From: Acidobacteriaceae bacterium
GTDB taxonomy: Bacteria; Acidobacteriota; Terriglobia; Terriglobales; Acidobacteriaceae
Length of the DNA: 64,000 nt
NCBI GenBank assembly: GCA_025360645.1
Contig: JANYBT010000035.1
Location: 1 to 64,000, forward strand
Reading direction: 5' to 3'
Both the position numbers and the translations under genes were made by a program. Position 1 is the stretch's first letter, and each line of letters opens with the position of its first letter. The notes beneath the pieces are model-generated. The model ran no database searches and was not told the origin of the DNA. It saw only the letters and a list, made by a program, of their open reading frames with translations. Shown here piece by piece: positions 42,678 through 63,475 of this stretch.

Positions 42678-43916
42678 ATGCGGGCCGGGAAGCGTGGAGC
42701 GAATTCCACCGCCTCCGAAATGCCTGCGACGACGGGTCTTTCCTTGTACCACAAGCTCTCTGCCCTGCAACAATGGGTGCCGAGCTACGCCTGGCAGCGC
42801 CTGACTCGGCGATCCCCTCGGGGGCGGGTGCACCTCGTGTTTGCCTTGGCCGACCACTTTGAGCCAGCGATTGTCCCTCACGATGGCAAGGCCCGGGCGC
42901 CGTACCAAGAGCAGGAGGCGCGGGTGGAGTCCTGGTGCCGGGATTTTCCGGAGGTGGCTGACGCTTGGCGCGACAACGAAGGGTTTCCCTTTGTTCATTC
43001 CTACTTTTTTCCGGCTGAGCAATATGACGAAGGCTTGGTCGGGCGCTTGGCGCAGCATTGCCATGAAGGGTGGGGGGAGATCGAAATTCATCTCCACCAC
43101 GGAATCCCAGATCCAGACACACCAGAGAATACGCGGCAGTCGCTGCTGGCATTCCGCGACATTCTGGCTTTGCGTCATGGATGTTTGTCGTATCGGGACG
43201 GTCTCGGGTCGCCCTGTTATGCCTTTGTCCATGGCAACTTTGCGCTGGCGAACTCAGCCGGAGGACGCTTCTGCGGAGTGGATGAAGAAATGGCGATCCT
43301 GGCGGAGACCGGATGTTTTGCAGATCTTTCGATGCCGACCGCGATGTTTCATCCGGCGCAGATTGCCAAGATCAATTCGATTTACGAGTGCGGACTACCG
43401 CTGCACATTCGCGCCCCGCATCGGCGCGGGGTCGATCTCGTTAAGGGGCGCGCTCCCGCGACTCTGCCCATATTGATTCAAGGTCCGCTGGGGCTGAAAT
43501 TTCAAGTGCCTCCGCAGGGAGGCAAATGGGTGAAGGCGGAGAACGGTGCCGTCACCGGCTACAATCCTTTAAGCATGTCGCGTTTGCAGATTTGGAAACG
43601 CGCAAACATCACAGTGGCGGGCCGCCCGGATTGGCTTTTCATCAAACTGTACTGTCATAGCATGGACCCGACGCAACACGATGCGGTCGTGGGCCAGGCT
43701 CTACGAGACTTTCTTCGCGAATTGGTGCAGGGTGCGAGCACACGAAACGAGATTCTTCATTTTGTCACGGCTCGTGAAATGACCAACATAATTTTGGCTG
43801 CTTGTAACGGCCGCGAAGGCAACCCGGGCGACTATCGCGATTATCGTTTCCAGCGGCGTCGAACGGATCAGCAGCGACCGATGGTCATCCCGATAAACAC
43901 GGTGGTAAAGGCCTAG
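42678..43916 (+). CDS. Unknown EPS-locus protein, possibly deacetylase-like
   Basis: The 412-residue protein starts at ATG 42678, or ATG 42720 (MPATTGLSLYHKL). No signal peptide or membrane segment is seen. Conserved-looking blocks are 'FALADHFEPAIVP', 'FPFVHSYFFPAEQYDEGLV', 'GEIEIHLHHGIPDPDTPENT', 'YAFVHGNFALANSAGG' and 'FADLSMPTAMFHPAQ'. The order acidic residue, 'YFFP', 'EIxxHxxH' and later His/Asn recalls the (beta/alpha) barrel of NodB-type polysaccharide deacetylases, with 'DHF' where 'DDG' is usual. I infer a distant carbohydrate-esterase-4 relative; this is not proven. It lies between the methyltransferase and the amidotransferase, 2 bases before the latter's start. Confidence 0.65.
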   Translation: MRAGKRGANSTASEMPATTGLSLYHKLSALQQWVPSYAWQRLTRRSPRGRVHLVFALADHFEPAIVPHDGKARAPYQEQEARVESWCRDFPEVADAWRDNEGFPFVHSYFFPAEQYDEGLVGRLAQHCHEGWGEIEIHLHHGIPDPDTPENTRQSLLAFRDILALRHGCLSYRDGLGSPCYAFVHGNFALANSAGGRFCGVDEEMAILAETGCFADLSMPTAMFHPAQIAKINSIYECGLPLHIRAPHRRGVDLVKGRAPATLPILIQGPLGLKFQVPPQGGKWVKAENGAVTGYNPLSMSRLQIWKRANITVAGRPDWLFIKLYCHSMDPTQHDAVVGQALRDFLRELVQGASTRNEILHFVTAREMTNIILAACNGREGNPGDYRDYRFQRRRTDQQRPMVIPINTVVKA

Positions 43917-45850: not shown

Positions 45851-48141
45851 CGAAGCCGGACGATCCCAGCCCGGGATCAGAGCGTCCGGAGCCGCTGCCG
45901 GCCAGCGATCCAGGCGCGAGTTCGCACATACCCGCTCCCCGGACGGGCGTATTCCTGATGATCAATAGCCTGGAGACGGGTGGCAGTGAGCGCCAGTTCA
46001 TCGCCCTTGCCCAAGCGCTGGATCGCAGCGTCTTTCAGATCGATCTGGGGTGCTTGCAAAAGAGGGGCGCACTCCTGGAGAGTGTCGGGGAAATTCAGGA
46101 ATTCAGCCTTGGAGGCAGCCTGTATGGGGTCAAGTCGCAGTCCACTCGCCTGCACCTCGCCCGTGAGCTTCGCCGTTCTGGCATCGCTATCGCTCATGCT
46201 TTTGATTTCTATTCCAACCTGACCTTAGTCCCGGCTGCGCGACTGGCACGAGTCCCGATCGTCATCGGCAGCCATCGGCAACTCGGCGACCTCTTGTCTC
46301 CGGCAAAGCGGTGGGTGCAAGGACGTGTATTCGGGATATGCGATCGGGTGGTGTGCAATTCTCGCGCGGCTGCCGATCGCCTGCTGCAACAGGGAATCCG
46401 CGCAGAAACCATCGTCGTCATTGGCAACGCGATCGCGCCCGCGTTCTTCGCGGCGGCATCACCCGCGTTGGAGCGCGGGCCGGGAGTGCTTCGCGTCGGC
46501 ATGATTGCACGAATGAACGATCCCTCGAAAAGCCATCGCGATTTTCTGGCGGTGGCCGCGAAGCTTGCGGCGACCTCGCTGAAGGTGGAGTTTGTGCTGG
46601 TTGGCGATGGTCCATTGCGGCTGGGGTTGGAGCGTGAAGCCGAGGCCCTGGGTCTGGGACGCCGGATAACGTTCTTGGGTGACCGCAAAGACATTCCAGA
46701 GCTTTTGGCCTCCATCGATGTTTCGGTGTTGCCCTCGGAATCCGAGAGCCTGTCGAATGTCCTGATTGAATCAATGGCGGCCGGCGTACCCGTCGTGTCC
46801 ACCCGGGTGGGCGGAACCCCGGAGTTGGTGGGAGAGGACCGCGGCATCCTGGTGGCGCCGCATGACGTTGAGGCGCTCTGCGAGGGGGTTGCGCGGCTTC
46901 TGACGATTCCGGCGCTGTGCGAAGAGTTCTCGCGGAAGGGCAGGGAATTCGCCCTTGCGAATTTCACCGTCGAATCCATTTGCAAACAATATGAGCAAAT
47001 GTATGGCGACTTGCTGGCGAAGAGAGTCCCTCGCTCCCGAGCCAAGGTATCGGTGCTGGCTGGCAAGCCGGAGGCCCGTACTCTTGCTGTGGTCTTGGTC
47101 GCACCTACCCTGCGCTATGTGGGCGGCCAGGCGGTGCAGGCAGATCTGCTGCTTCGTCACTGGCGCAACGATCCCGATGTAGTTGCCCGCTTCATCCCGG
47201 TGGACCCCGCTTTCCCACGCGTGTTGCAGTGGGCGGAGCAGGTCCCGTTTCTTCGCACCCTGGTTCGCGCTCCGATCTACCTGGGGGAGCTATGGAAGGG
47301 ACTCGCAAAGGCGGATATCGCCCACATCTTCTCGGCATCGTACTGGTCTTTTCTTCTTGCGCCTGCGCCCGCATGGTTGGTCGCCCGGCTGCGGGGCAAG
47401 AAGACTCTGATCAACTACCGTAGCGGCGAAGCGCGGGACCATTTACGCCGTTCCTGGATTGCCCGATCAGTGCTGGCGCAAACTGACTTGCTGGTTGTTC
47501 CTTCTGGATATCTGGTGGATGTGTTCGGCGAGTTCGGACTTCGCGCTCAGGTCGTGCCCAACATTGTGGACTTGTCTCAGTTTTCATTTCGGGTACGCGA
47601 TCCGCTGCGGCCTCATTTGATCTGCACCCGAGGATTCCACCCGTACTACAACGTGGATGTGGTGGTGCGCGCGTTTGCTGAAGTGCAAAAAGTGTTTCCC
47701 GAAGCTCGCCTGGATCTGGTGGGTGGCGGCCCGCTGGAAGGGCAAATCCGCCAATTGGTCCAACGGATGGGACTAGCGGGCGTGGATTTCTGCGGAGTTG
47801 CCTCGCGGAACGAAATCGGTCGCTTTTACGATCGCGCGGACATTTTTATCAATGCTTCCAGTGTCGACAACATGCCGGTGTCGGTTTTGGAAGCCTTTGC
47901 TTGCGGAACCCCGGTGGTGACGACCGCGCCCGAATCCATGCGCTACATCGTGACCGATGGGCACACCGGATTGCTGTCGGCACCCGGCGATGCCGAAGCA
48001 CTTGCCAGCAATGTTCTGCGCCTTCTGCAGACCCCCGGGCTGGCCGCTACGCTGTCATATAATGCACATCAGGAATCGCAGCGCTACTCCTGGGGTGCCG
48101 TGCGGGACCAGTGGCTAAAGCTCTATCGTGATTTGACTTAG
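45847..48141 (+). CDS. Tandem double family 4 glycosyltransferase
   Basis: The 764-residue protein runs from ATG 45847, coupled to the previous stop. It contains two complete GT-B enzymes in one chain. The first (about 33-375) has 'GVFLMINSLETGGSERQF', 'LRVGMIARMNDPSKSHRDFL', 'EFVLVGDGPLR' and 'SESESLSNVLIESMAAGVP'. The second (about 410-764) has 'APTLRYVGGQAVQADLLLRH', 'ICTRGFHPYYNVDVVVRAF', 'LDLVGGGPLEGQIRQL' and 'ASSVDNMPVSVLEAFACGTP'. Both keep the E-x7-E type donor site. They probably add two successive sugars. The Pro/Ser-rich first 30 residues look unstructured. I see no frameshift or internal start between the halves. Confidence 0.88.
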   Translation: MTKPDDPSPGSERPEPLPASDPGASSHIPAPRTGVFLMINSLETGGSERQFIALAQALDRSVFQIDLGCLQKRGALLESVGEIQEFSLGGSLYGVKSQSTRLHLARELRRSGIAIAHAFDFYSNLTLVPAARLARVPIVIGSHRQLGDLLSPAKRWVQGRVFGICDRVVCNSRAAADRLLQQGIRAETIVVIGNAIAPAFFAAASPALERGPGVLRVGMIARMNDPSKSHRDFLAVAAKLAATSLKVEFVLVGDGPLRLGLEREAEALGLGRRITFLGDRKDIPELLASIDVSVLPSESESLSNVLIESMAAGVPVVSTRVGGTPELVGEDRGILVAPHDVEALCEGVARLLTIPALCEEFSRKGREFALANFTVESICKQYEQMYGDLLAKRVPRSRAKVSVLAGKPEARTLAVVLVAPTLRYVGGQAVQADLLLRHWRNDPDVVARFIPVDPAFPRVLQWAEQVPFLRTLVRAPIYLGELWKGLAKADIAHIFSASYWSFLLAPAPAWLVARLRGKKTLINYRSGEARDHLRRSWIARSVLAQTDLLVVPSGYLVDVFGEFGLRAQVVPNIVDLSQFSFRVRDPLRPHLICTRGFHPYYNVDVVVRAFAEVQKVFPEARLDLVGGGPLEGQIRQLVQRMGLAGVDFCGVASRNEIGRFYDRADIFINASSVDNMPVSVLEAFACGTPVVTTAPESMRYIVTDGHTGLLSAPGDAEALASNVLRLLQTPGLAATLSYNAHQESQRYSWGAVRDQWLKLYRDLT

Positions 48142-49198: not shown

Positions 49199-51169
49199 TC
49201 AGCCCGACTTCGCTTCCGCTCGACACTGGAAGCGCTGGAGGGGCCAACTGCCCGGGAATGGCTGATCATCCCCTTCGAGACAGACGCGGTGCCAAAGTTC
49301 CAGATTCAGCAAACGCCAGATTCGGTCGTAGTGATCCCGATAACGCGCCCGATGCTCGTGGAACAGCTTGACGATGGCCGGTCGCTGGAAAAGTCCCCGA
49401 TCCAGGCTGCGTGGCTCCAGCAGGAGTTTCTCAATGGCATCCAGTTGCGGTCCTACGATCCATTCGCTCCACGGCGTGGGGAAGCCGAGTTTGCGACGAT
49501 ACACAATGGAATGCGGCAGCAAATTTTCGACTGCTTTTTTCAGGAGATGCTTGCCGGAGAACCCTTGGAGGAGCATCTCCTGGGGGATCTGCAGCGCCCA
49601 CTCCACTAGAACGTGGTCGAGGAACGGCACGCGGCTTTCGATCGATGCCGCCATGCTCATGTTGTCCTGCTTCATCAGCAGTTCTACGAGGTAGGTCTTG
49701 ATGTCCGTGTAAAGCAAGCGTTGCAGAAGACTTCCCGAGGACCCCTCCCAATACTTAAGGACGTTGCGATACGCCGCGCCCGGGCCCAACTCCTCAGACA
49801 AGTCTCTCGTCAGCAAATTCTGCTGTTCGGCTTCGCTGAACGCTGAAAAGAAATTGTCAAAATAAAACGAAGACCAGGACTGGCTGTCGAGACCGAGAAA
49901 CGTATGCCCCAGCTTGCGTCGAAGGGTTGCGGAAATCAGGCTGGACGTTCCGATGGCGCCGCGCAGGCGGTCCCGCAAGAAGGCGGGGGCCAGCTTGCGA
50001 TAGATGCGGTCCAAAGCAAGATTGTGGAGCGTTGCGGAGTAGCGCGAATAGCCGGCCAGGGTCTCGTCACTGCCTTCGCCGGTCAGCACGACTTTGACTC
50101 GCTGCCGAGCCAACTCCGCAACGAAATACAGGGGAATGCTGGATGGCCAGACGATCGGCTCGTCTTCGTGCCAAATCAACCCGGGAAGCGCTCCCAGAAA
50201 GTCCTCGCGGCTGACCAGCACTTCGTGGTGCACGGAATTTAGATGCTGCGCCACTATTCTGGCGTAGGGCAGTTCGCTGTGCGAGGTCTCGGTGTATCCC
50301 ACCGAGAAAGTTTCGATGGGCTCGCCTCGGAGCTTGGTCATCAAAGCCGCCACAGCGCTCGAATCCAATCCCCCGCTCAAAAACACTCCCAGGGGGACAT
50401 CGCTCATCAAGTGACTGGAGACCGCGCCTTCGAGCAGTTCGCGATAGCGGGAGACGTAATCGCGTTCGCTGCCCGTCACCACCACGGGCGAAGGCTGCAG
50501 ATCCCAGTACTGCTGAATCCGGGAGCGGCCATCCTCGTGCACTTCGAGCCAATGCCCGGGCATCAGCTTTTGAATGCCGCGGTAAAGCGTTGCAGGCCCG
50601 GACACATAACCGAAAGCCAGAAACTCTGGGAGTACGGTGCGCTCCAATGCACCCCGGCTGCGGGAATGCGTCAGAAGGACCTTGATCTCGGATCCAAACA
50701 ACAGGCGCTCGGGCGTAACTTGATAGTAGAGGGGTTTGATCCCCAGTCGGTCCCGGGCCAGGAAGAGAACTTTTCGATTCGTGTCCCAGATAGCGAAGGC
50801 AAACATGCCGCGCAGATGCAGGACGCAATCCGGGCCATACTCCTCGTACAAATGAAGAATGGACTCGGTGTCGCTGTGGGTACGGTAGGAGTGGCCTCGA
50901 GCTTGCATCTGCTCCCGCAGCGCAAGGTGGTTATAGATTTCCCCATTGAAAACGATCCAGAGGGTTGCATCCTCATTGCTGATGGGCTGGTGGCCGGTGG
51001 CCAAGTCAACAATGCTCAACCGCCGCATGCCGATCCCCACCCGGCTTTGCAGGTAGGTTCCCTGATCATCGGGGCCGCGATGGGCGATGACCTCGCACAT
51101 TCGCAACAGCGCGCTACCGTCTGCGACAGCGCCCTTCCCGAACTCTATGATTCCTGCAATCCCGCACAT
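49199..51169 (-). CDS. asnB: Second AsnB-like glutamine amidotransferase, inverted
   Basis: The 656-residue protein runs from ATG 51169, chosen because Cys must be residue 2 (MCGIAGIIEFG); the frame is open 7 codons upstream. The glutaminase domain has 'IAHRGPDDQGTYL', 'NGEIYNHLALREQMQ' and 'SDTESILHLYEEYG'. The synthetase domain has 'FLSGGLDSSAVAALMTKL' and 'LTGEGSDETLAGYSRY'. It reads against the genes on both sides and shows only family-level similarity with the first asnB. It could amidate a different sugar acid or make asparagine. Upstream are 218 bases shared with the divergent dehydrogenase gene, in which I see no clear promoter. Confidence 0.9.
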   Translation of the reverse strand: MCGIAGIIEFGKGAVADGSALLRMCEVIAHRGPDDQGTYLQSRVGIGMRRLSIVDLATGHQPISNEDATLWIVFNGEIYNHLALREQMQARGHSYRTHSDTESILHLYEEYGPDCVLHLRGMFAFAIWDTNRKVLFLARDRLGIKPLYYQVTPERLLFGSEIKVLLTHSRSRGALERTVLPEFLAFGYVSGPATLYRGIQKLMPGHWLEVHEDGRSRIQQYWDLQPSPVVVTGSERDYVSRYRELLEGAVSSHLMSDVPLGVFLSGGLDSSAVAALMTKLRGEPIETFSVGYTETSHSELPYARIVAQHLNSVHHEVLVSREDFLGALPGLIWHEDEPIVWPSSIPLYFVAELARQRVKVVLTGEGSDETLAGYSRYSATLHNLALDRIYRKLAPAFLRDRLRGAIGTSSLISATLRRKLGHTFLGLDSQSWSSFYFDNFFSAFSEAEQQNLLTRDLSEELGPGAAYRNVLKYWEGSSGSLLQRLLYTDIKTYLVELLMKQDNMSMAASIESRVPFLDHVLVEWALQIPQEMLLQGFSGKHLLKKAVENLLPHSIVYRRKLGFPTPWSEWIVGPQLDAIEKLLLEPRSLDRGLFQRPAIVKLFHEHRARYRDHYDRIWRLLNLELWHRVCLEGDDQPFPGSWPLQRFQCRAEAKSG

Positions 51170-51387
51170 CTTGCACAAACACCAGGACAAAAGATGAAGT
51201 GGCCAGTGTTTGCCCCATTCTGGCCTCGATCTCTATCCTACACGGGGTCAGCGAAGAACCGGGCAGAGTCCCGATCCTCACGGACTGCGGGCATTTGTCA
51301 ACTTGCTCTTTTTCTCGGAGTTGGCGACACTAACGAATTGAGCCGCTTCTGGTTACGCGATTGAGGCGTGCTCGTGAGGGAGAAGGC

Positions 51388-52713: not shown

Positions 52714-52743
52714 TGCGATGACGGCGGAGGGTTTGCGGCCTTG

Positions 52744-53766
52744 ATGCAATGCAATCTTATTGATTGGAACTCCGCGGACTGGCAACGGCTCGATCAGTTT
52801 TGGGATCGTACTGTATTTCAGACGCGCGAGTGGCTGGCTTTTATCGCGGAGACCCAGCATGCCACGCCGGTCCTCGCTGAGATCCGCGAGGCGGACGCAA
52901 TCGTGGGATACTTCAGCGGCCTCACCTTCTCTCGCTTCGGCGTCAAGGTTCTCGGCAGTTCTTTCCCGGGCTGGACTACGCCTTACATCGGCTTCAATCT
53001 GTTGCCGACTGTCTCGCGCTCGATTGCGCTGGAGGCTGTGGAGCAGATGGCTTGGAACCAACTGAAGTGCCTCCATCTGGAAGTTTCCGATCCGCAGTTC
53101 ACCGAAGAGGACGGGCGCAGGCTAGGCTTCACTTGCGAATTTTATACTTCTTATCGCACCGACCTTACCCAGGACGAAGATAAGCTGTTCAGTAATATGG
53201 ATGCGGCTTGCCGCCGCTGTGTACGCAAAGCGGAGAAGAGCGGCGTGGTCATTGAAGAAGCTCACGATTTGTCGTTCGCCGATGACTACTACGCTCAGCT
53301 GCAGGACGTGTTTGCCAAGCAGGGGCTGGTTCCCACTTACTCAGTCGAGCGCGTGCGGTCTTTAGTTCGGCACCTCGAACCTACCGGTAGAATCCTGCTG
53401 CTCCGGGCCCGCGATGCCGAAGGCAAGTGCATCGCTAGCGGAATTTTTCCCGGCTTCAATCAGATCGCCGAATTTTGGGGAAATGCCAGCTTTCGTTCCA
53501 GCCAGATTCTTCGCCCCAATGAAGCGATTCAATGGTACGTCATGCGCTACTGGAAGAAGCGGGGTGTGCAGGTTTACGACTGGGGTGGACAAGGGGTGTA
53601 CAAGGAAAAATACGGCTGCGTCCCCCATCGTGTGCCTTGGTTCATCAAGTCGCGGTATCGCGCTGTGGCGGAGCTTCGGGAAGGGGCGCGTCAACTGTTT
53701 GTACACAAGCAACGGTTCTTAGGCTGGATGCAAAGAAAGAAGGCAGGAGGCGAGGAAAATTCATGA
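52744..53766 (+). CDS. FemAB/GNAT-like acyl- or aminoacyl-transferase
   Basis: The 340-residue protein starts at ATG 52744; TTG 52741 is adjacent. The N-terminal half reads 'VFQTREWLAFIAETQHATPVL' and 'VVGYFSG'-like strands. The C-terminal half has 'NMDAACRRCVRKAEKSGVV', 'LLLRARDAEGKCIASGIFPGF', 'EAIQWYVMRYWKKRGVQVYDWGG' and 'YKEKYG'. The 'R..IRKAEKxGV' and 'YDWGG...KxxFG'-like phrases are typical of FemAB-related double-GNAT proteins found in EPS/exosortase loci. They transfer acyl or aminoacyl groups. It lies 30 bases after algD. Residue numbers and donor are not certain. Confidence 0.82.
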   Translation: MQCNLIDWNSADWQRLDQFWDRTVFQTREWLAFIAETQHATPVLAEIREADAIVGYFSGLTFSRFGVKVLGSSFPGWTTPYIGFNLLPTVSRSIALEAVEQMAWNQLKCLHLEVSDPQFTEEDGRRLGFTCEFYTSYRTDLTQDEDKLFSNMDAACRRCVRKAEKSGVVIEEAHDLSFADDYYAQLQDVFAKQGLVPTYSVERVRSLVRHLEPTGRILLLRARDAEGKCIASGIFPGFNQIAEFWGNASFRSSQILRPNEAIQWYVMRYWKKRGVQVYDWGGQGVYKEKYGCVPHRVPWFIKSRYRAVAELREGARQLFVHKQRFLGWMQRKKAGGEENS

Positions 53767-53803: not shown

Positions 53804-54925
53804 TCAGAAGTTCCGAGGCAGGCCGTCCCCGTCGGCTCGCGTGAAATGGATCCGCGACGAGGAGTTGTGCAAGGGCGGTAGCAAAGCGGCTAACGGCTTG
53901 GACGCTGCGAAGATGAAATTCGACGCCGCTTCCATGAACCCGTTCGTGCGCAGAGCATCCCCCCAAAGAGGATGGCTTTGATTGGAAACAATTAAATCCA
54001 CTCCCTGCTGAACCAGACAGTCGGTGGCTGCGCGCATCACGGGAACGGCGTCCGTCGGGTCCGCCCAGCAGTCCAGGATCGAACCTACCCGCATAGAGCC
54101 GTACTTTGTATCCGGCCGCCTCTGGGCCACCACCGCCCAACCGAGGTCGTCGCCGCGCCGGCTGATCCGCAATCGAGTCAGGTGTTTTTCGCTGGCCGGA
54201 TACAGGCGTTGCAGAGTCGCGGCGTCACGGACCGCGGCCAGCGAATAGTTGCGCCTGGCTTTTTCCCACAGTGGAGTTGCCCAATCCGAAAAGACCTCGA
54301 CCTCGGTTACGGTTGTGTCTGGTGCAAACCGCAACTTGGCTCCGGCCCAGGCTTGATGCAATTTCATTGCGGCGAAGCCGATGCCGGTGCAGGCCGCCAG
54401 ATCCATCATGCGTCGGCGCCAAGCGCTTCGTCGGAGTGCTTCCATCTCGCGGAAGAAGCGGAAGGGCTTCACCACCTTGAAGAAAAACGGAACTAGGCAA
54501 TGGCTCCAGCCGATGCCGACGAGCATGCGGGGCAACGGACGATCATATCCGCCCATGCCCAGGCAGTAGAGCAGAGGCTGGCGCTGCATGGCATCCCGGA
54601 GGAGCAGTCCGCCCACCGCCGCCAACGATTTGCGGACGATCCCCTCCGACAAGGGATGGTGGTAATAAGCGAGCGAACGGAAACTCCCGTCGGGAAGTTG
54701 GAACCTCTGATGCTTCAGGGCGTACCCGCCGCGCACTACCCCACCGTCGAGCGCGACAAAAAATTCATTGAATAACTCCTCGTCCCCGGTCTGGGGTAAC
54801 CAGCGGGGAACTGATTCCTTGAAGAACACGAAGTCGGGTTCGGCCCCGCCCGCTTGCAGGCGCTCATTGAACTCCTGGACGCCGCGTTCGTGTTCTTTCC
54901 GGTAGAGTTGGATGGAAATGGGCAA
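53804..54925 (-). CDS. GNAT-like acyltransferase candidate next to the acyl carrier protein
   Basis: The 373-residue protein has no signal peptide. The N-terminal part reads 'MPISIQLYRKEHERGVQEFN', 'EELFNEFFVALDGGVVRGGY' and 'HPLSEGIVRKSLAAVGGLLLRDAM', similar to the acceptor half of GNAT-type enzymes. The C-terminal part repeats such a pattern: 'LTRLRISRRGDDLGWAVVAQR', 'VPVMRAATDCLVQQGVDLIVSNQSH'. A central stretch at about 130-200 is basic and hydrophobic. It is the last gene of the minus-strand run and starts 6 bases after the acyl carrier protein stop. I infer that it uses the acyl-ACP made by its neighbours. The family is not recognised with certainty. Confidence 0.65.
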   Translation of the reverse strand: MPISIQLYRKEHERGVQEFNERLQAGGAEPDFVFFKESVPRWLPQTGDEELFNEFFVALDGGVVRGGYALKHQRFQLPDGSFRSLAYYHHPLSEGIVRKSLAAVGGLLLRDAMQRQPLLYCLGMGGYDRPLPRMLVGIGWSHCLVPFFFKVVKPFRFFREMEALRRSAWRRRMMDLAACTGIGFAAMKLHQAWAGAKLRFAPDTTVTEVEVFSDWATPLWEKARRNYSLAAVRDAATLQRLYPASEKHLTRLRISRRGDDLGWAVVAQRRPDTKYGSMRVGSILDCWADPTDAVPVMRAATDCLVQQGVDLIVSNQSHPLWGDALRTNGFMEAASNFIFAASKPLAALLPPLHNSSSRIHFTRADGDGLPRNF

Positions 54926-54931
54926 GGTGGG

Positions 54932-55177
54932 TCAACGTGATTGGAGCTTGCTCTCGACCACTTTCGTGATCTGCGCGATGCTCTGCATCTGATCCATTTC
55001 TTCCGGCGCGAATTGCAATTGGAAAGTGTCTTCAAGAGCCAGGATCAGATTGAGATGCTGAGTCGAATCCCACTTTTCTATGCTTTCAGGCGAAGAGTCT
55101 GGTGTGATGCGCTCCGCTGGCACCCCAAGAATATCGGAGGCGATGGCGCGCACACGTTCAAAAACCAAAACGCTCAC
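54932..55177 (-). CDS. Acyl carrier protein
   Basis: The 81-residue acidic protein starts at GTG 55177, whose GTGA overlaps the stop of the FkbH-like gene; the longer frame upstream is that gene in another phase. The four-helix carrier fold is recognisable from 'ERVRAIASDILGVPAERITPD' and 'EKWDSTQHLNLILALEDTF'. Ser38 in 'WDSTQHLNL' is the phosphopantetheine site. The phrase 'WDS..HLNLI..LE' is typical of carriers that partner FkbH-type HAD proteins. It is not the housekeeping AcpP, which has 'GADSLD'. It would hold the acyl unit made by the FkbH-like protein for transfer by the next gene product. Confidence 0.9.
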   Translation of the reverse strand: MSVLVFERVRAIASDILGVPAERITPDSSPESIEKWDSTQHLNLILALEDTFQLQFAPEEMDQMQSIAQITKVVESKLQSR

Positions 55178-57066
55178 TTGTTTTCTCCATTGGCTACTGT
55201 TAACTCGATCCAATCCGGACACGTTAGGGGCGCGCCCCCTAAAGGAGACCGCCATCGAGAGTTCTCTCCCACTTGTTCCTCACGCTGAAATCCATGGCGA
55301 GGATAGAAGTCGCCGGCCGGAGCATTCTTCCGGGTGGGCAGATACCATCCCGACAAACTGTCCATCCCGCGTTGTGCCGCGCTGCGCGCAAGATGGGATA
55401 GCAGAGCCGTTTCCACCTGCCTTCCAATCACCCGGCAACTCAGCAGGAAGCTCTCAATTTCGCAAGTATTGCCTTGGTCGTGCGTAATTGCGACCCCAAC
55501 CAGCCCATGGTCGCCAAATCGGTCTCGCATCCGGATTGATACCACCCGCCAGCCTGGCTGGACGGCGAGGTCTGCGATTTCCTGGTCTGAGTAACGGTGG
55601 GTCGTCATGTTGAACTGGCTGGTCTTCTGGGTGAGTTGCGCGATCCGTCCGAGGCTTGCAGCAGCTAGGGGCGCGATTTCCGCCCGCTGCTGCAAGAAGC
55701 GGTAGAAGTCCTCTTTCGATTGAAAACTCTGTTCCGCAGCCACTCGCTGCCGCTGTTTCTGATACAGGGCGGTCCGTTGTTCGTCCTCGCTGGAAAGCGT
55801 CAGCCGCTCCAGCGCGGGATGATTTCGGACTGCGGCTGCGTAAAGCATGGGATCTTCCGGCAAATCAATCACCATGACCTCAGGAACGGACGACCGCACG
55901 CGTTCCCGCTCGAACGGATTGTCGTCCAGGAACGCCAACGAGTCGATCCCAAGGTTTAACTCGGAAGCGATTTCGCGCAGCCCCTGCTCCTTGTCGTTCC
56001 AATTAATTCGCAGGCAGGCGAAGTGCTCCGGCCGCAAGACCATCTCAGGATGCTGTCCCATCGCTTCCATGGCATCCTCGGGATTGTTCTTGCTGCACAC
56101 CGCGAGCAGAATGCCTTTGCGATACAGATCCAGTAAAGCTCTCTGCAGAGACTGGTACGCCGCGCCCGGATAGTCGGAGCCCAGCTTGATTCCGGCCATG
56201 CCGTCTTCGCCAATTACTCCGCCCCAAAGCGTGTTGTCGAGATCCACCACCAGCACTTTCGCCGTCCTGCCGGTCAGGGGCAGAACGAAGCGCATCCACT
56301 CTTCCGCCAAGTGAATCAGTTGATCGGCGGCAATCGGCATGCGCGCGATCAGCCACTTCCTCGGATCGTTCCAGCGATCCCGCCCCTGGCGCGCCACCAG
56401 CCCCTCGTAATCGAGGATGAAAACTCCCATCTGCTCGCGAGCCAAGCGGCCAATCTCAGCGTTCAGTTGTGCGATCGCAGCCACTTGGCTCGTGCTCCTC
56501 TGCCCGTCCAGAACCCCGAAGTTGGGAAGCGAGGGTCGCTCCATGGAGTGGATCACCAAAGCTGCACTACTATGCCTCCGGAAGGCTGCGATCCATTGTT
56601 GGAAGCTCGCGCACACTCGTTGCAGCGCATCTTCCACGGTCTCGGGTGTCATCTCCCCATATTCCTGCCATAGATCGGGAGCGACATCGGGAGTCCGCAC
56701 CGCCAGAATCACCACATCGGGATGGAATCGGTACAGGGAACTTTGCTGATCCAGAATTTCCGGCGCATAAGCGTTAAAATCACCGACGTGGACCTGCAGG
56801 TCGATGCCATAAGTAAACGCCGCTGCCCGCAGCAATGGGACGATCGGTTCAATCGTCATAGCCCGCAGGATGGCGATGCGGAAAACAAGAAAGCGGGCTT
56901 GCGCCCTCAGGCCCTCGCAACGTGAAACCACGAAGGCTGCGCTGGCGGGGCCGCGCTCGACCCGCCACAACTCCTGGATCGAAAGCAGCACCTTCTCCGT
57001 CTCGCCCGCAGCCACCCGGGCATCAATTTCAGTTCGAAGTTGCGAGGGGTCGTTGGCCAACATCAT
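55174..57066 (-). CDS. FkbH-like HAD-IIIC protein with C-terminal GNAT domain
   Basis: The 630-residue protein has an N-terminal SGNH-like region (about 80-265, 'QVHVGDFNAYAPEIL', 'PDVVILAVRTPDV'), a HAD domain and a C-terminal GNAT domain. The HAD domain shows 'VVDLDNTLWGGVIGEDG' (nucleophile Asp275, Asp277), 'AVCSKNNPED' (323-331) and 'AFLDDNPFERERV' (378-390). The GNAT domain (about 460-600) has 'MTTHRYSDQEI', 'VSIRMRDRFGDHGLVGVAI' and 'ESFLLSCRVIGRQVE'. FkbH proteins take 1,3-bisphosphoglycerate, dephosphorylate it and load glycerate on an acyl carrier protein. The adjoining carrier gene supports that role. The usual setting is antibiotic biosynthesis; here it is an EPS locus. Confidence 0.9.
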   Translation of the reverse strand: MMLANDPSQLRTEIDARVAAGETEKVLLSIQELWRVERGPASAAFVVSRCEGLRAQARFLVFRIAILRAMTIEPIVPLLRAAAFTYGIDLQVHVGDFNAYAPEILDQQSSLYRFHPDVVILAVRTPDVAPDLWQEYGEMTPETVEDALQRVCASFQQWIAAFRRHSSAALVIHSMERPSLPNFGVLDGQRSTSQVAAIAQLNAEIGRLAREQMGVFILDYEGLVARQGRDRWNDPRKWLIARMPIAADQLIHLAEEWMRFVLPLTGRTAKVLVVDLDNTLWGGVIGEDGMAGIKLGSDYPGAAYQSLQRALLDLYRKGILLAVCSKNNPEDAMEAMGQHPEMVLRPEHFACLRINWNDKEQGLREIASELNLGIDSLAFLDDNPFERERVRSSVPEVMVIDLPEDPMLYAAAVRNHPALERLTLSSEDEQRTALYQKQRQRVAAEQSFQSKEDFYRFLQQRAEIAPLAAASLGRIAQLTQKTSQFNMTTHRYSDQEIADLAVQPGWRVVSIRMRDRFGDHGLVGVAITHDQGNTCEIESFLLSCRVIGRQVETALLSHLARSAAQRGMDSLSGWYLPTRKNAPAGDFYPRHGFQREEQVGENSRWRSPLGGAPLTCPDWIELTVANGENK

Positions 57067-57171: not shown

Positions 57172-58956
57172 CTATTCGACTCCTTGCAGTGCAGTTTCGA
57201 TCTCTTCCATGTCCGCTCCGATATCTTTGCCGTCCCGTCCTGCGGCCAGCCCAAGCGAGGCCCTCTTGCATGATGCCGAAGCATCTGCCTTCCGGCACAG
57301 GCGATAGTCCTCCCGGATTCCCGCGTCACCCATGTCTTTGACTAAAAAGTTGCCTGGAGGCCAACTCCCTTGTCCTCCGAGGATCAGGTTGTGCGTGAAG
57401 GTGGAGTTCTCGAAACAACTCTTGAACACCCCGCCAGGACCCTGCCCTTCCGGGTGGTAGGCGCAGTTGCCGGGTCCCCCACCAGCGGATGCGATCTTTG
57501 GTTCGCGTGGAGCCGAGAAAATATTGTTCGCAATCGTGAAATTTGCCAGCTTCTCGGTCTTGTCCAGGATCGAGATCAAAAGATTGGGCACGAACACCGT
57601 ATTGTGATCAATGCTCACATCCCTCATCTGCGGTTTGTTGGACAGGATCAGCGCGAAAATGCCGAAGCCCTGGTAATCCTGCTGATGGACCCCATCGGCC
57701 ACCAGATCGTGGATACTGTAGCGCTCGCCCGCGGTGCTTGCGCCACCTGCGTCTGACAAAGCATTCGCCAATTGCAGCACGCTGCCCACATTGCGGACCC
57801 GGTTGTAACGGACTGTGATGTCGGTCACTTTGCACAAGGGGCACTTGTTGGCCTGGTTCTTGGGAGTAAGCAGGATGGAAAACCCGGTCTGGCTGAAGCC
57901 GCCCCACACGTTCTCCAGCAGGTTGCCCTCAAACAGAACCCGCTGTGCATTTTTGACTTCAAAGTGGTTCTTCACGATGAAAGGATGCCCCGACGTTCCC
58001 CCTACATAACCAGGTTGATCCTTCATCCAAGTCATGGGTTTGAAGAGATGGTTGCGGCGAATCTCGATGTCGGTGGGGGTCACTTCGGCTGGTTTGCCGC
58101 CGAAAAGAATATTCTCCCCGGATGCTTCCAGAAAATTATTCACGATCTTGTAGGGACCCTGCGCGGCCACGCCGCCGCCGCTTCCCACAGCCTGGGCATC
58201 CGTACAAGCGCCCGAAACTGCAATGCAGTGGAAGTCATTGAGGTAGGAATCCACCAGTGCGCCAAAGGCGATTTCGGTAAATGCGACGCCGCGCGCGGTC
58301 TCGTCTTCGGCGGTCCCGTGCATCCAGACGCGATCAAAGATGATGTGGTGGGCGCTTGCGTTCTCTTTCGCCGAGGCGAGCGCCGTCATCGGTGCACCCG
58401 GGTTCCCGCGCCGGATTTCGAGACCCGTGAAACGGTAGTGGTTAGCGCCGTTCATGAACAGGATCGGGCCAGACCCCCCTTTGCCATCGAATTCCATTTT
58501 TGCCAGAACATTGCTGACCGTCGTGCAGTGCAGAGCGGGACGAGCAGGTAGCCCCACCACCCCTCCATAGCAGGGAGTCATGCGGCTGCCTTCCCGGGGC
58601 AGCTTGTCGTCAGCAACGCCGGTGCGGAGCAGGATCCAATGTCCGTCATCGCAGTTTTTCGCCGGAAACTGTACCGTTCCGCTGTACACTGCTCCCGGTT
58701 CGAGCATCAGGATATCGCCGCATTTGGCTTGGTCGACCGCTTGTTGCAGGCTCTCGGAGGGCCGCACGCGAAGGACGTGGCCTGGCGTGGGTGTGTCTGC
58801 CATGGCTGTCTTCAAATAGACTCGAGGAAGCTCGGCCGGGCCGTCGAATCCCTTTTGGGAAAGGGGAGGAACTGCAAAACATGCCACCCCGGCAAGCCAA
58901 AGCAGCAGAAATGCAAACCCTCGGGATACAGCGGAAACCCTCAAGACCTTATCCAT
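57172..58956 (-). CDS. Secreted right-handed beta-helix protein of the EPS locus
   Basis: The 594-residue protein runs from ATG 58956. A signal peptide (about 1-28, AFLLLWLAGVACFA) is followed by 'VLRVRPSESLQQAVDQAKCGDILMLEPG', the start typical of pectate-lyase-like parallel beta-helices. Repeated turns follow: 'DIEIRRNHLFKPMTW', 'HFEVKNAQRVLFEGNLLENVW', 'DITVRYNRVRNVGS', 'DVSIDHNTVFVP', 'NFTIANNIFSAPR'. It may be a polysaccharide lyase, epimerase or binding protein; no catalytic residues are clear. Its middle part is homologous to residues about 1500-1650 of the giant protein at 18750. It sits in the minus-strand run, 105 bases before fkbH. Confidence 0.82.
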   Translation of the reverse strand: MDKVLRVSAVSRGFAFLLLWLAGVACFAVPPLSQKGFDGPAELPRVYLKTAMADTPTPGHVLRVRPSESLQQAVDQAKCGDILMLEPGAVYSGTVQFPAKNCDDGHWILLRTGVADDKLPREGSRMTPCYGGVVGLPARPALHCTTVSNVLAKMEFDGKGGSGPILFMNGANHYRFTGLEIRRGNPGAPMTALASAKENASAHHIIFDRVWMHGTAEDETARGVAFTEIAFGALVDSYLNDFHCIAVSGACTDAQAVGSGGGVAAQGPYKIVNNFLEASGENILFGGKPAEVTPTDIEIRRNHLFKPMTWMKDQPGYVGGTSGHPFIVKNHFEVKNAQRVLFEGNLLENVWGGFSQTGFSILLTPKNQANKCPLCKVTDITVRYNRVRNVGSVLQLANALSDAGGASTAGERYSIHDLVADGVHQQDYQGFGIFALILSNKPQMRDVSIDHNTVFVPNLLISILDKTEKLANFTIANNIFSAPREPKIASAGGGPGNCAYHPEGQGPGGVFKSCFENSTFTHNLILGGQGSWPPGNFLVKDMGDAGIREDYRLCRKADASASCKRASLGLAAGRDGKDIGADMEEIETALQGVE

Positions 58957-59065: not shown

Positions 59066-60058
59066 TCACCCTTTGCGCCCCAGCCATGATTGCCATGCCC
59101 GCAAGCTGCGAGCCATAAGTTGTGGCGCAATCCCCAGACCCAACAGCGTCAGTCGAACTTTGATACTGGGTGCGATGCTGTGGGACTGCCGCAGCCGTTC
59201 GACGGCGTTTTGGAAATCCCCTGCTAACAAGCTCTGCTTTCCGCGAATTAGATCCAGACGGGCCTCCTGGCTGCGGAGGCGCGAGCGCAGCAATTTGCGC
59301 GAAGCCGCATCCAAAGCCAATTGTTGGTCCAGTTTCTTCAGCACTTCGATCTCACCGGCGACCAGACTGCCGGCGGTCGCCCCTTGGCTGTCCGAATGTA
59401 TCCTGCGGCGCAGCAGAACTTTTCGCTGATACGTGAACCGACACCCTTGGAAGGCCATGCGCAGCCAGAGGTCATGGTCCTCTGCGCAGCGAAAGTTCTC
59501 ATCGAACCAACCTGCCTCCAGCACTCGGCTGCGTTGTGCGATTGTTCCCGAGGTAGCGAGCTGGGTGGTTTCCACCAATAGACTCGCAAACGAAACTGGC
59601 CCGGTCGACGGGCAGACTTGCATGAAGGTCTTGTCCTCGAACCCCGGATCGCCAAAATATGCGGCATCACAAAAAACCACATCCAGACTCGGCTCGGCTT
59701 CGACCAGCTTCATTTGCACCGCCAAGTATTCGGACATCCAGATATCGTCGCTGTCCAGAAATGCCAGAAACTGTCCTCGCGCGTGGCGGATGCCCAGGTT
59801 GCGCGCCGCGCTGGGCCCTCCATTGCTCTGCTTCAGATAGGTGATCCTGGGCTGGTACGGTTCCAGGGCCTGCTCCAGCGCCTCGGTGTCGGGCGAACCA
59901 TCATTGATGACGATGACCTCGAAATTCCCAAAGCTCTGGGCCAGTGCGGATTCCAGCGACTCCCGAATGTGCCCCGCCGCTTGATAGCAGGGAATGATGA
60001 CGCTGACTGCCGGCGTACTGGTCGCGGGATCGTCCATCTCGGGAAGAATCTCAGACAT
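59066..60058 (-). CDS. Family 2 glycosyltransferase
   Basis: The 330-residue protein runs from ATG 60058, which overlaps the preceding sulfotransferase stop by 8 bases; ATG 60082 would add 8 residues. The GT-A fold is clear: 'VSVIIPCYQAAGHIRESLES', 'FEVIVINDGSPDTEALEQAL', 'SNGGPSAARNLGIRHARGQF' and the DXD site 'LAFLDSDDIWM'. 'FRCAEDHDLWLRMAFQG' is the ED acceptor motif. The C-terminal 80 residues are helical and basic. It probably adds one sugar of the repeat unit. The donor is unknown. Confidence 0.92.
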   Translation of the reverse strand: MSEILPEMDDPATSTPAVSVIIPCYQAAGHIRESLESALAQSFGNFEVIVINDGSPDTEALEQALEPYQPRITYLKQSNGGPSAARNLGIRHARGQFLAFLDSDDIWMSEYLAVQMKLVEAEPSLDVVFCDAAYFGDPGFEDKTFMQVCPSTGPVSFASLLVETTQLATSGTIAQRSRVLEAGWFDENFRCAEDHDLWLRMAFQGCRFTYQRKVLLRRRIHSDSQGATAGSLVAGEIEVLKKLDQQLALDAASRKLLRSRLRSQEARLDLIRGKQSLLAGDFQNAVERLRQSHSIAPSIKVRLTLLGLGIAPQLMARSLRAWQSWLGRKG

Positions 60059-60932
60059 CTCGGAGGGTGCCGCCTTTACCATTCATCCACAGCATCGGGT
60101 CGTGGGTAGACAAGTCGCAGTCCGTCGTCAGACCGTACCCCAGCGTGAGCATCAACCCCCCCCATGCGGTTTCGATCGCTTTCACGGATTCGCCGGGCAA
60201 CTCCGTTTTCCAGCGTCCTGCCGTCGCCTGGCCCACGAAGGGAATGTCTTTGCGGTGTTTCTTGGTGGCGACCCATTCCCCGGCCTGGACCTTTTCCATC
60301 TGCCGCATCTGTTCCGCCGAGCTCTTGTCGATTGCCTCTACGAGCCTCGCCCGCTCCGCTTGCACGCCCAGAAAGCTGGAGATGCGTGCCAACTCCCGCT
60401 CTGTTTCGGAGATCATATCTTCATAGCGCACCAGCAAGAAGCTTTCACTCTTGCCTCGCGTGAACACCCAGCTGGCTACGTTTTCGCCCCACGATCCCCA
60501 GTCGGCCGAGATCAGCCGCCCGTGAACGAAATCCTCAACATACCGCTGCAATGGATAGTCATCTGCAATTTGCCGGTACTTCCTTTGAAAGTTGTAATAC
60601 GACAAGACCAGGTCCCGCGGATCCCTCACGATGTACAGGACCTTCCGGTAGCGCGCATCGAAGTATTGATGGCTCTTGATGATTCTTGGTCGCGGCGTGC
60701 GCTTCAGCGCCCGGTTCGATTGCGAAGAAGTGTCCGGAATCAACTTCTCAATGTTCGTGAAGCTGACCGTCTTGTCCGGATGCACCAGGTTCGCGATCAG
60801 GAACCGGGTCCAGGTGTTCCCCGAGCGGGGATAAGACACGACAAAAGTATCGTCCGGATAGACGGCCAGGCCGCGATCCGCAATGTCGGTGCCCATCAGG
60901 TACTTCACGACCGTCTTGATCCCGTAAATCAT
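60051..60932 (-). CDS. Sulfotransferase domain protein (2 of 3)
   Basis: The 293-residue protein has the PAPS-binding loop 'FVVSYPRSGNTWTRFLIANL' (about 30-49) and 3'-phosphate motif 'VLYIVRDPRDLVLSYYNFQR' (about 98-117). 'IIKSHQYFDARYRK' gives the catalytic-His region, and 'RYEDMISETERELARISSFLG' and 'FVGQATAGRWKTELP' (loop binding the nucleotide) are also present. This is the Sulfotransfer_1 type, unlike the enzyme at 48162. It is clearly paralogous to the next gene upstream, with which it overlaps by 4 bases, so a tandem duplication is likely. It would sulfate a polymer sugar. Confidence 0.92.
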   Translation of the reverse strand: MIYGIKTVVKYLMGTDIADRGLAVYPDDTFVVSYPRSGNTWTRFLIANLVHPDKTVSFTNIEKLIPDTSSQSNRALKRTPRPRIIKSHQYFDARYRKVLYIVRDPRDLVLSYYNFQRKYRQIADDYPLQRYVEDFVHGRLISADWGSWGENVASWVFTRGKSESFLLVRYEDMISETERELARISSFLGVQAERARLVEAIDKSSAEQMRQMEKVQAGEWVATKKHRKDIPFVGQATAGRWKTELPGESVKAIETAWGGLMLTLGYGLTTDCDLSTHDPMLWMNGKGGTLRDV

Positions 60933-61798
60933 CGCAAAGGGTACTCCGGCAGAAAATCCAGCGGCGCCGCGTCTGGTTCAATCGCCGCTTCCACCCCTGT
61001 AGTGGAATAGCCCAGCAATCGCATCAGAGGCCCCCAAGCCTCTTCCATGCGCTCGACCGCTTCTGGGGGAAGCTTGGACTTCCACTCCCCGGAAGTCGCC
61101 GTGCGCACGAACAACAGGTCCTTGCGGGTCTCCTTGGTGGACGTCCACTGATCCGCCTGCGCCATTTCCAACTTTCGCATTCGATCGGAAGAACTTTGCG
61201 CCACTGCCCGAGCCAGCCGTTCTGGATCCGGCGGAATACCCAGCAGCCCTGCGATCCTGGCCAACTCGGTCTCCGCCCTCCGCAGCAGGTCCTCGTAGCG
61301 CAACAGAAGGAAGCCGGGAGTCCGGCTGCGGGCAACCATCCAACTCCCCACGTTCTGTGCCCAGGATCCATAAGGACAAGTCTCCCCCGCGAGGAAGCGC
61401 GTCACAAATTCTTCCACCGGGGTGTCGGTTCCGCTTACTCCCCGCTTGATCTGGAAATGGTACTGCGAAAGTGCCACATCGCGCGGGTCACGCACAATGC
61501 AAACTACCCGCTTGTACCGCGGGTCGAAAGGATGGTGGCTTTTCATCACTCGTGGTCGAGGACACCCCTGCAGAAATTGCCGCGATTGCAAATCGGGGTC
61601 GGGGATAATTTTTTCGATATTGAGAAACGTGACCGGGTCGTGCGATTGGATCAGATTGGCGATCAGGAATCGCGTCCAGGTATTGCCAGACTTGGGATAG
61701 GACGCGACAAAAACGTCATCCTCCCAAACCACAAGATTGCGCCCGGGCGCAACTCGACCCAGCAAATACTCGATCCCATATTTCAATTTCCGGATCAC
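60929..61798 (-). CDS. Sulfotransferase domain protein (3 of 3)
   Basis: The 289-residue paralogue of the downstream protein matches it across the full length. Its motifs are 'FVASYPKSGNTWTRFLIANL', 'VMKSHHPFDPRYKRVVCIVR', 'RDPRDVALSQYHFQIKRG', 'RYEDLLRRAETELARIAGLLG' and 'VRTATSGEWKSKLP'. All PAPS-binding and catalytic positions are kept. The two copies have diverged enough to act on different positions or sugars. It starts at ATG 61798, and its stop overlaps the next start (ATGA). There are 132 bases up to the flippase gene; they hold no clear signal. Confidence 0.92.
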   Translation of the reverse strand: MIRKLKYGIEYLLGRVAPGRNLVVWEDDVFVASYPKSGNTWTRFLIANLIQSHDPVTFLNIEKIIPDPDLQSRQFLQGCPRPRVMKSHHPFDPRYKRVVCIVRDPRDVALSQYHFQIKRGVSGTDTPVEEFVTRFLAGETCPYGSWAQNVGSWMVARSRTPGFLLLRYEDLLRRAETELARIAGLLGIPPDPERLARAVAQSSSDRMRKLEMAQADQWTSTKETRKDLLFVRTATSGEWKSKLPPEAVERMEEAWGPLMRLLGYSTTGVEAAIEPDAAPLDFLPEYPLR

Positions 61799-61930: not shown

Positions 61931-63475
61931 TCACCCTGACACCGTCTCTTTTTTGGCTAGGAGCCGCGGCCAGATGGCGCCTCCCAGAGTCTGGGCTTCG
62001 CTCGAGCTCAGCCCGAACTTCCAGAATGTCAATCCATAGCTGACCAGCGACAGTGTGCCGATAGCGAACAAAACCCGGTAGTCCGGCTGGCTGAACCGCT
62101 GGGTGACCAGGAAGGGAATGACCAACCCACCCAGAGCCACCAACAGGGTGCTCCCCATTCTCCGCATGTAATCCCAGTACTCAATCTGGGCCACCCGGCA
62201 GACGTAGATGGGCTGGACCACAACCTTGCTGATCAGCATCGGCACCATGGTGCCCAGCGCCACCCCCAACATCCCAAAGTAGCGCACAAAGATCAAGCTG
62301 AGGACGAGGTTCGCGATGCCCTCGATCGAGTTAAACAGCGCCACGAACTTGTGCCTCGAAGTGCCATAGAGTAGGCTGATCGAGGGCCCTTGAATCAAAG
62401 ACACCGTCATGCCCGAAACCAGCACCACCAGGACAGGATAAGCGTCCAGGTATTGCGGTCCCATCCACCGGCCGATAAAGGCCTTGCCCCAGGCGATGAG
62501 CCCAAAGCCCACAAAGCATGCCACTCCGGTCGACACCTTGGTCGCAAAATAGAAAGTCTTCTTCAGCCCTTCAAAGTCGCTGGCGCCTTCCTGCCGGCTG
62601 AACACCGAGGGGAACACTCCCATCAGAGATGACATCAGCAGCATGAAATACTGCAGCAGCGTGCTACCGATGCGGTAGTGCGTGACCGCGGAAAAGCCCA
62701 GGTAGGCAGCGACCACAACCGCGTCCAGGCGGAAGCGAAGAAGATCGGCGAGTTGAGCCACCAGGCTGTACACGCTGTACGAGAACAAAGACCGGGCCGT
62801 GGTTTGGCTCCACTGCCCCCACTCCAACCGGAGAAAAGGCATCTCTCGGTGAGTGAAGTACACGTACAGCGCCACTGCGGGCAGGCCCGACAAGAAGGTG
62901 ACCCAGGCCAGGCCGACTACACTGTAGCCCGCCAGTAAAACCACCACGGTCAGGCCGCTCCGCAAAATCAATGACAGCAAATCGAACGATGCGGTCAAGT
63001 CAAAGCGCAAATGCGATTCCAACACCCCCGTAAAAACTCGGAGCGGGAACGAGATGGCGACGCTGACTCCCAAAACCAGGACAATCCGGAACAGCAATGC
63101 CGCGTCCTCCGGGTCTCGCGTCAGGCGACCTGACAAGGCCGCGATGATGCCGCTGACCAGTACCACAAGGAGCGCCAATCCCGAAAAGATTCGCAGGGCT
63201 GTGTTGAACAATTGATTGGCGGTCGCGGTGTCCGCCGCTCCCGCAGCCCGCGCCAGATACCGGGTGATCGCCGACGATAGGCCTAGGTCCAAAATGCCGT
63301 AATACCCAACGAAGGTTGCCACCAGGGTCCAGATGCCATACATCCTGTCCCCGAGGCTGTGCACCACAAATGGCATCAGCAGGATCGACACTAACGCCGT
63401 TGCCACCGTGGTCGTCAGGCGCATGGTGGAGCCGGTCACGAGTTTTCGCGCAGAGTTGGGCATGAACGAAGCCAC
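61931..63475 (-). CDS. Wzx-like oligosaccharide flippase (MOP superfamily)
   Basis: The 514-residue inner-membrane protein has 12-14 hydrophobic segments. It starts at GTG 63475 or ATG 63463 (MPNSARKLVTGS). The opening 'LVTGSTMRLTTTVATALVSIL' and 'LMPFVVHSLGDRMYGIWTLVATFVGYYGILDLG' are typical of Wzx/RfbX flippases. 'FVGFGLIAWGKAFIGRWMG' and 'LSLIFVRYFGMLGVALGTMV' mark the second half. It would flip the lipid-linked repeat unit to the periplasm for the Wzy-like protein at 40324. It is the first gene of the minus-strand run. A small inverted repeat GGAGT-CGCA-ACTCC lies just upstream (63483-63496). Confidence 0.9.
   Translation of the reverse strand: MASFMPNSARKLVTGSTMRLTTTVATALVSILLMPFVVHSLGDRMYGIWTLVATFVGYYGILDLGLSSAITRYLARAAGAADTATANQLFNTALRIFSGLALLVVLVSGIIAALSGRLTRDPEDAALLFRIVLVLGVSVAISFPLRVFTGVLESHLRFDLTASFDLLSLILRSGLTVVVLLAGYSVVGLAWVTFLSGLPAVALYVYFTHREMPFLRLEWGQWSQTTARSLFSYSVYSLVAQLADLLRFRLDAVVVAAYLGFSAVTHYRIGSTLLQYFMLLMSSLMGVFPSVFSRQEGASDFEGLKKTFYFATKVSTGVACFVGFGLIAWGKAFIGRWMGPQYLDAYPVLVVLVSGMTVSLIQGPSISLLYGTSRHKFVALFNSIEGIANLVLSLIFVRYFGMLGVALGTMVPMLISKVVVQPIYVCRVAQIEYWDYMRRMGSTLLVALGGLVIPFLVTQRFSQPDYRVLFAIGTLSLVSYGLTFWKFGLSSSEAQTLGGAIWPRLLAKKETVSG

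Follow-up and report, generated by a model that had tools for sequence, protein, structure and literature searches.

A putative carrier-based acylation module of FkbH, an acyl carrier protein and a tandem-GNAT protein in an exopolysaccharide locus of an Acidobacteriaceae bacterium

A stretch of 64,000 nucleotides from an Acidobacteriaceae bacterium (positions 1 to 64,000 of contig JANYBT010000035.1, assembly GCA_025360645.1; referred to here as the window) carries an exopolysaccharide locus, and inside it three tightly coupled minus-strand genes that probably form an acylation module: an FkbH-type HAD-IIIC acyl loader composed of an FkbH_N part, a HAD domain and a C-terminal GNAT-like part (55174-57066), a dedicated acyl carrier protein (ACP) of 81 amino acids (54932-55177), and a protein that we call P3 (53804-54925), predicted to adopt a tandem-GNAT, N-myristoyltransferase-like fold and proposed to be an ACP-dependent glycan acyltransferase. 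Our work favors the idea that FkbH makes an acyl-ACP, probably glyceryl-ACP, and that P3 then passes this acyl group on to the polysaccharide, the acceptor probably being an amine of one of its sugars. It is highly likely that P3 is a carrier-dependent transferase, whereas the glyceryl nature of the loaded group is likely and the amine acceptor probable. These three assessments are not independent of each other, and the reading as a whole is regarded as probable.

The assignments of the loader and of its carrier are well defined. FkbH (630 amino acids) passes TIGR01686 (295 bits against a cut-off of 147; residues 268-596, i.e. the HAD and the GNAT-like part), and its N-terminal part matches PF21211 (FkbH_N, 41 bits). 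The motifs DLDNTLWGG, CSKN and LDDN are intact, and the HAD motifs I (DxDxT) and IV (DD) are both present. The cysteine preceding SKN in motif II was considered as a marker of glyceryl loading and rejected: at this position, CSKN, LSKN and LSKA all occur among the FkbH proteins of tetronate-type operons. The ACP matches PF00550 (33.1 bits, gathering score 20.8), and the serine of its WDST motif is the expected phosphopantetheine site. The longest open reading frame of the ACP spans 54932-55255, and a GTG start at 55177 yields a four-base GTGA overlap with the FkbH stop codon; P3 starts at a TTG codon six bases past the ACP stop. An initial annotation of this DNA had already described the intact DLDNTLWGG motif, the C-terminal GNAT-like part, the four-base overlap and a GNAT-like protein six bases downstream, and each of these is borne out by the family match, the start codons and, for P3, the predicted fold. 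In antibiotic pathways, FkbH and an ACP form glyceryl-ACP (PMC7489565; PMC8949500), and judging from its sequence we propose that the FkbH of the window forms an acyl (glyceryl) thioester on the ACP. FkbH and P3 are both encoded in single copy in the genome. Since the order FkbH-ACP-P3 recurs at a locus of another Acidobacteriota genome (L015; about 50, 33 and 40% identity, respectively), this arrangement is not due to chance.

An argument for a carrier-dependent function of P3 comes from its genomic company. A profile search gave strong matches in nine of 396 sampled Acidobacteriota genomes, and a scan of GTDB contigs yielded 18 loci in Planctomycetota, Acidobacteriota, Elusimicrobia, Verrucomicrobia, Deinococci, Myxococcota and the alphaproteobacterium Microvirga. 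P3 is rare in Planctomycetota (2/294 sampled genomes) and in the phylum of locus L038 (1/241), both counts including the query genome, and the plasmids searched contained no match. We compared 24 distinct loci, including the window, from at least seven phyla by hidden Markov model scans with our own models and with Pfam on selected genes: in 20 of them, a carrier-protein domain is encoded in the same gene cluster as P3. Three Geothrix loci have the carrier domain fused to a ligase (Pfam-tested in one). With 12 PP-binding matches in the 3.82-Mb genome as the background, chance alone would place a carrier no more than about 2 kb from any one gene in roughly 1-2% of the cases (own arithmetic), and the linkage is therefore not a matter of chance, even allowing for the relatedness of the loci.

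The loader that adjoins P3 is variable: it is FkbH in six loci (the window, L015, L018, L039, L040 and L135), an AMP-binding ligase in twelve, and a FabH-like enzyme together with a short-chain dehydrogenase (SDR) in one (L033). Among the five remaining loci, a gene with an FkbH domain is present elsewhere in the genome for L030, L031 and L035 and on the P3 contig, about 19 kb away, for L038; none was seen for L036. The gene order varies as well, with FkbH-ACP-(deacetylase-like)-P3 in Microvirga (L040), ACP-FkbH-VOC-P3 in L018 and L039, and ACP-FkbH-(deacetylase-like)-P3 in L135. P3 as a partner of FkbH only was thus ruled out, 10 of the 16 P3 genomes reached via the named loci being without FkbH. 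The initial annotation had proposed to look for the same three-gene order in other loci and had counted its rarity, combined with a polymer free of glycerate-derived groups, against the module: the order does exist at L015, and it is indeed rare, with FkbH adjoining P3 in only a quarter of the loci. This result is informative rather than negative, because P3 swaps the loading enzymes and keeps the carrier.

Two of the other loader types deserve mention on their own. In Geothrix (L017, 5816-8787; L028, L029 and L032), an adenylation-plus-peptidyl carrier protein (PCP) and acyl-CoA dehydrogenase-like proteins are encoded divergently beside P3. In known pathways, such adenylation-PCP and acyl-CoA dehydrogenase-like pairs make pyrrole-2-carboxyl carriers; by analogy, a glycan of Geothrix may be decorated with a pyrrole or a related group. 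In Elusimicrobia (L033, 153-3707), genes for a deacetylase-like protein, P3, an ACP, an SDR and a FabH-like protein follow one another; the donor suggested by this set is 3-hydroxybutyryl.

P3 and its relatives match no Pfam or NCBIfam family, and a search of the PDB sequences with P3 returned no relative at E values up to 10. AlphaFold models based on the family alignment predict a tandem-GNAT protein for both the P3 of the window (pLDDT 87, pTM 0.85) and a relative from Planctomycetota (pLDDT 92.6, pTM 0.89). The top fold matches are GNAT proteins: N-myristoyltransferases, Eis and an acetyltransferase of E. faecalis. N-myristoyltransferases are the best solved matches for both models over nearly the whole length (Z 20.6, 4.2 Å over 308 residues; Z 19.4, 4.8 Å over 307 residues), and the resemblance is one of fold only, P3 not belonging to this family by sequence according to Pfam, NCBIfam and the PDB sequences. 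FemAB structures are not among the fold matches listed, which is uninformative in either direction. A second common feature of the family is its C-terminus: 22 of the 24 P3 proteins end a few residues past D-G-[DH]-G-P, usually as GDGDGP(I/V)(N/H)L; the exceptions are L036, which extends some 19 residues further, and the P3 of the window, which has ADGDGLPRNF. The C-terminal carboxylate of N-myristoyltransferases takes part in catalysis, and the end of these enzymes aligns at residue 365-366 of P3. It is tempting to speculate, by analogy and as an idea only, that the conserved C-terminus of P3 may act similarly. More distant GNAT proteins of 346-378 amino acids are encoded in several Acidobacteriota genomes (L112-L118); they match mostly the C-terminal half of P3.

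The neighborhoods of P3 also point to the acceptor. One deacetylase-like family is encoded directly upstream of P3 in 11 of the 24 loci, and a deacetylase-like gene lies beside P3 in at least 13 of them overall. PF01522 is matched by P3-adjoining genes in L030 (76.6 bits) and L037 (24.1 bits), and three Planctomycetota loci (L023-L025) have a gene resembling DegT-type sugar aminotransferases one or two genes upstream (resemblance only). In the window genome, a PF01522 polysaccharide deacetylase (contig 64157-65092, minus strand, just past the window edge; 77.8 bits, gathering score 23.1) belongs to the same gene run as the module. N-myristoyltransferases transfer acyl groups to amines. It is because of the deacetylase-like and aminotransferase-like neighbors, taken together with the N-myristoyltransferase-like fold, that we favor an amine; an ester is less likely and comes second to an amide.

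Taken together, we suggest the following pathway, in which the acyl group, the acceptor, the choice of an amide over an ester and the cellular compartment are inferred: FkbH would dephosphorylate a three-carbon acyl phosphate, for which D-1,3-bisphosphoglycerate is the most likely candidate, and load the acyl group, most likely glyceryl, on the phosphopantetheine arm of the ACP. P3 would then dock the ACP, and its GNAT core would pass the acyl group to the amine or, less likely, to a hydroxyl of a sugar. This acceptor sugar would belong to a repeat unit that is bound to a lipid or a nucleotide and still located on the cytoplasmic side, prior to export by the flippase. The amine might be freed by a NodB-type deacetylase or be made by an aminotransferase, and the product would be an N-glyceryl (amide) sugar.

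The phylogeny of FkbH fits the idea of a coherent gene set. In a maximum-likelihood tree, the FkbH of the window groups with those of L015 and Solibacter (support 100/99); these nearest kin come from two genomes that both encode P3, unlinked in one. In this latter genome, that of Solibacter, an ACP-P3 pair is located on a contig other than that of FkbH, and its ACP is 53% identical to that of the window. The set has been kept in spite of being unlinked, and FkbH, ACP and P3 therefore seem to travel together. The P3-adjoining FkbH proteins fall in several separate lineages of the tree, most of those with MBOAT neighbors belong to a branch other than that of the window FkbH, and those of three tetronate-type operons (from Methylosinus, Burkholderia and Pseudalkalibacillus plasmids) form a branch of their own.

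FkbH is by no means restricted to P3 loci. The FkbH cut-off is passed by 29 of 297 sampled Acidobacteriota genomes, and among the neighborhoods examined, about a dozen have MBOAT-like neighbors (all four that were tested with Pfam being positive), four have a hexapeptide-type neighbor (one tested), and three have large genes resembling those for nonribosomal peptide synthetases (NRPS) or polyketide synthases (PKS; L073, L092, L096). In L071, L079, L082 and L084, and in the look-alikes L072-L075, L080-L085 and L089, FkbH and ACP genes adjoin genes for MBOAT O-acyltransferases. Such FkbH-ACP-MBOAT sets are common in the family of the window genome and may be regarded as analogous to a Dlt-type system with an FkbH loader. 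Plasmid-borne FkbH genes adjoin those for an ACP and WcbI in Niveispirillum and for MBOAT in both Tistrella and a strain of Rhodobacteraceae; the one of Maritalea belongs to a sugar locus of the sialic-acid type. Moreover, several glycan-type loci encode a small VOC (glyoxalase-fold) protein next to FkbH and ACP (L018, L039, L091, L094, L146, L150). Thus, FkbH-ACP pairs are common in glycan loci, and it is the pairing with P3 that is new.

Several observations weigh against the pathway proposed here. Membership of the FkbH family is the only basis for assigning the glyceryl group: the window protein shares just 32-35% identity with its counterparts in tetronate-type operons and falls outside their branch, and for this reason the assignment depends on the FkbH family as a whole. 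The carrier-based acylation module suggested by the initial annotation is retained for this polysaccharide locus, and its glyceryl part is less firmly placed. As for the acceptor, the deacetylase of the window run lies about 7 kb upstream of FkbH and outside the window edge, and the deacetylase-like member at L040 reaches only 18.3 bits on PF01522, below the cut-off of 23.1. Finally, the similarity of the predicted fold of P3 to N-myristoyltransferase does not prove the substrate, and the tail of the window copy (53804-53840), modeled with low confidence, has several substitutions and one additional residue when compared with GDGDGP(I/V)(N/H)L, the usual end of the family, so that the activity of this copy could differ.

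The alternative that comes closest retains the module and the transferase and has the carrier loaded with a non-glyceryl acyl group, such as lactyl, glycolyl or a further modified C3 acid. It is unlikely, though worth keeping in mind: P3-adjoining FkbH proteins occur in several lineages with different partners (a VOC protein, a different type of ACP), and different acyl groups seem to reach P3 relatives via AMP ligases or FabH/SDR, whereas the three-gene set of the window has no extra tailoring gene and the product described for the FkbH family is glyceryl from 1,3-bisphosphoglycerate (PMC7489565; PMC8949500). A product of another kind, i.e. a small secreted metabolite (tetronate-like or a lipid) made by a module whose position in the polysaccharide locus is incidental, is very unlikely. 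Antibiotic clusters are a classic setting of FkbH/ACP pairs, and the few Acidobacteriota FkbH loci with NRPS/PKS-like neighbors would fit such a role; however, no ketosynthase, FabH, PKS or NRPS gene was found among the scanned neighbors of the module, the FabH-like ring-forming enzyme and the Agg4/Agg5-type partners that define glycerate-utilisation (tetronate) operons are likewise not found there, the window FkbH groups neither with tetronate nor with NRPS FkbH proteins, and P3 loci in many phyla contain deacetylase-like, glycosyltransferase and sugar-nucleotide genes.

The initial annotation had left open whether P3 or the FemAB-like GNAT protein encoded next to it (52741-53766, plus strand, convergent with P3) is the transferase. 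FemAB-type proteins are amide-forming GNATs, and this one, in addition to adjoining P3, is related to the FemAB family of the XrtA system, of which it is not a member (TIGR03019, 52 bits against a cut-off of 260; PF13480, 39 bits). Its gene, however, lies on the opposite strand, and no FemAB-like match is present beside P3 at any other locus, which rules it out as a conserved partner; P3 instead tracks the carrier and loader genes, and does so in other phyla. P3 is thus the likely transferase of the two, and the idea that the FemAB-like protein transfers the acyl group with P3 as an accessory is highly improbable.

The layout proposed for the FkbH-ACP-P3 module has a well-known parallel: in D-alanylation by DltA, DltC and DltB, a loader, a carrier protein and a transferase decorate a cell-envelope polymer. 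The window module shares this layout, but its loader is a HAD protein rather than an AMP ligase, and the fold of the transferase and the acyl group differ. With the glyceryl-ACP pairs of tetronate and methoxymalonyl pathways (Mad7/Mad8, Mad14/Mad12, OzmB type) the module has the loader, the stand-alone ACP and the motifs in common; in the window, P3 takes the place of their FabH-like, dehydrogenase, methyltransferase or PKS partners. In the MBOAT cassettes of Acidobacteriota, Tistrella and Rhodobacteraceae and the WcbI cassette of Niveispirillum, FkbH and ACP also adjoin acyltransferase and at times sulfotransferase genes, but the transferase is a membrane O-acyltransferase or WcbI and not the tandem-GNAT P3. 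P3 itself resembles N-myristoyltransferase from end to end in its tandem-GNAT fold (Z about 19-21 over some 305 residues), and differs from it in its low sequence identity (6-10%), its bacterial origin, the adjoining carrier-protein gene and a C-terminus that is a few residues longer. A precedent for the decoration is provided by Campylobacter jejuni, where the fkbH-domain gene cj1302 is part of the flagellin glycan locus: both strain 12664, in which cj1302 is a pseudogene, and strain 12661, which lacks cj1301 instead, are devoid of dimethylglyceric-acid sugars (PMC7099621). These strain data are a correlation and no test of cj1302 itself. As in the window, an FkbH gene stands in a glycan locus, here with a glyceric-acid-derived group on a sugar (pseudaminic acid), but the glycan is that of flagellin and the group is further O-methylated. 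A literature search found no description of such an FkbH module with exopolysaccharide, O-antigen, capsular polysaccharide or MBOAT, most subscription papers being outside its coverage. The description of the module as little known is therefore fair for this variant, and less so for FkbH in glycan loci and for glycerate-derived glycan groups, which have these precedents.

Acylation alters the charge of bacterial polysaccharides, the way they gel and the way they are recognized, and the enzymes that add unusual acyl groups are mostly unknown. We tentatively put forward, as a serious possibility, that P3 defines a widely scattered and hitherto undescribed family of carrier-dependent glycan N-acyltransferases with the fold of N-myristoyltransferases. 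This family would serve as a universal adapter for interchangeable loaders (FkbH, AMP ligase, adenylation-PCP plus dehydrogenase, FabH plus reductase) and, together with a deacetylase, might allow bacteria to replace the N-acetyl groups of their polysaccharides by tailor-made acyl groups. If this holds true, P3 would allow such decorations to be traced by sequence in seven phyla or more, the acyl group could be predicted from the neighboring loader gene, and precursor chemistry of the antibiotic type would be linked to envelope glycans; one transferase family may thus let bacteria vary their sugar coat.

The surroundings of the module are those of a polysaccharide locus, with a flippase, sulfotransferases and glycosyltransferases, as had been noted initially, and none of the genes scanned in the window region matches a PKS family. 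On the minus strand, the gene run upstream of FkbH encodes a 594-amino acid protein without family match (57172-58956), a family 2 glycosyltransferase (59066-60082; PF00535, 106 bits), two sulfotransferases in overlapping genes (60051-60932 and 60929-61798; PF00685, 127 and 132 bits) and the flippase (61931-63475; PF13440/PF01943). The plus-strand part contributes Wzz, a bacterial sugar transferase, Wzy_C, glycosyltransferases, a UDP-sugar dehydrogenase and the third sulfotransferase. Two asparagine-synthase-like amidotransferases related to TIGR03108 are encoded one per strand (43919-45850 and 49199-51190). A 412-amino acid protein (42678-43916) has no Pfam match, and its start, VHLVFALADHFEP, resembles deacetylase-like barrels. 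Finally, a 790-amino acid protein (45769-48141) appears to be a fusion of two GT4 glycosyltransferases within a single reading frame.

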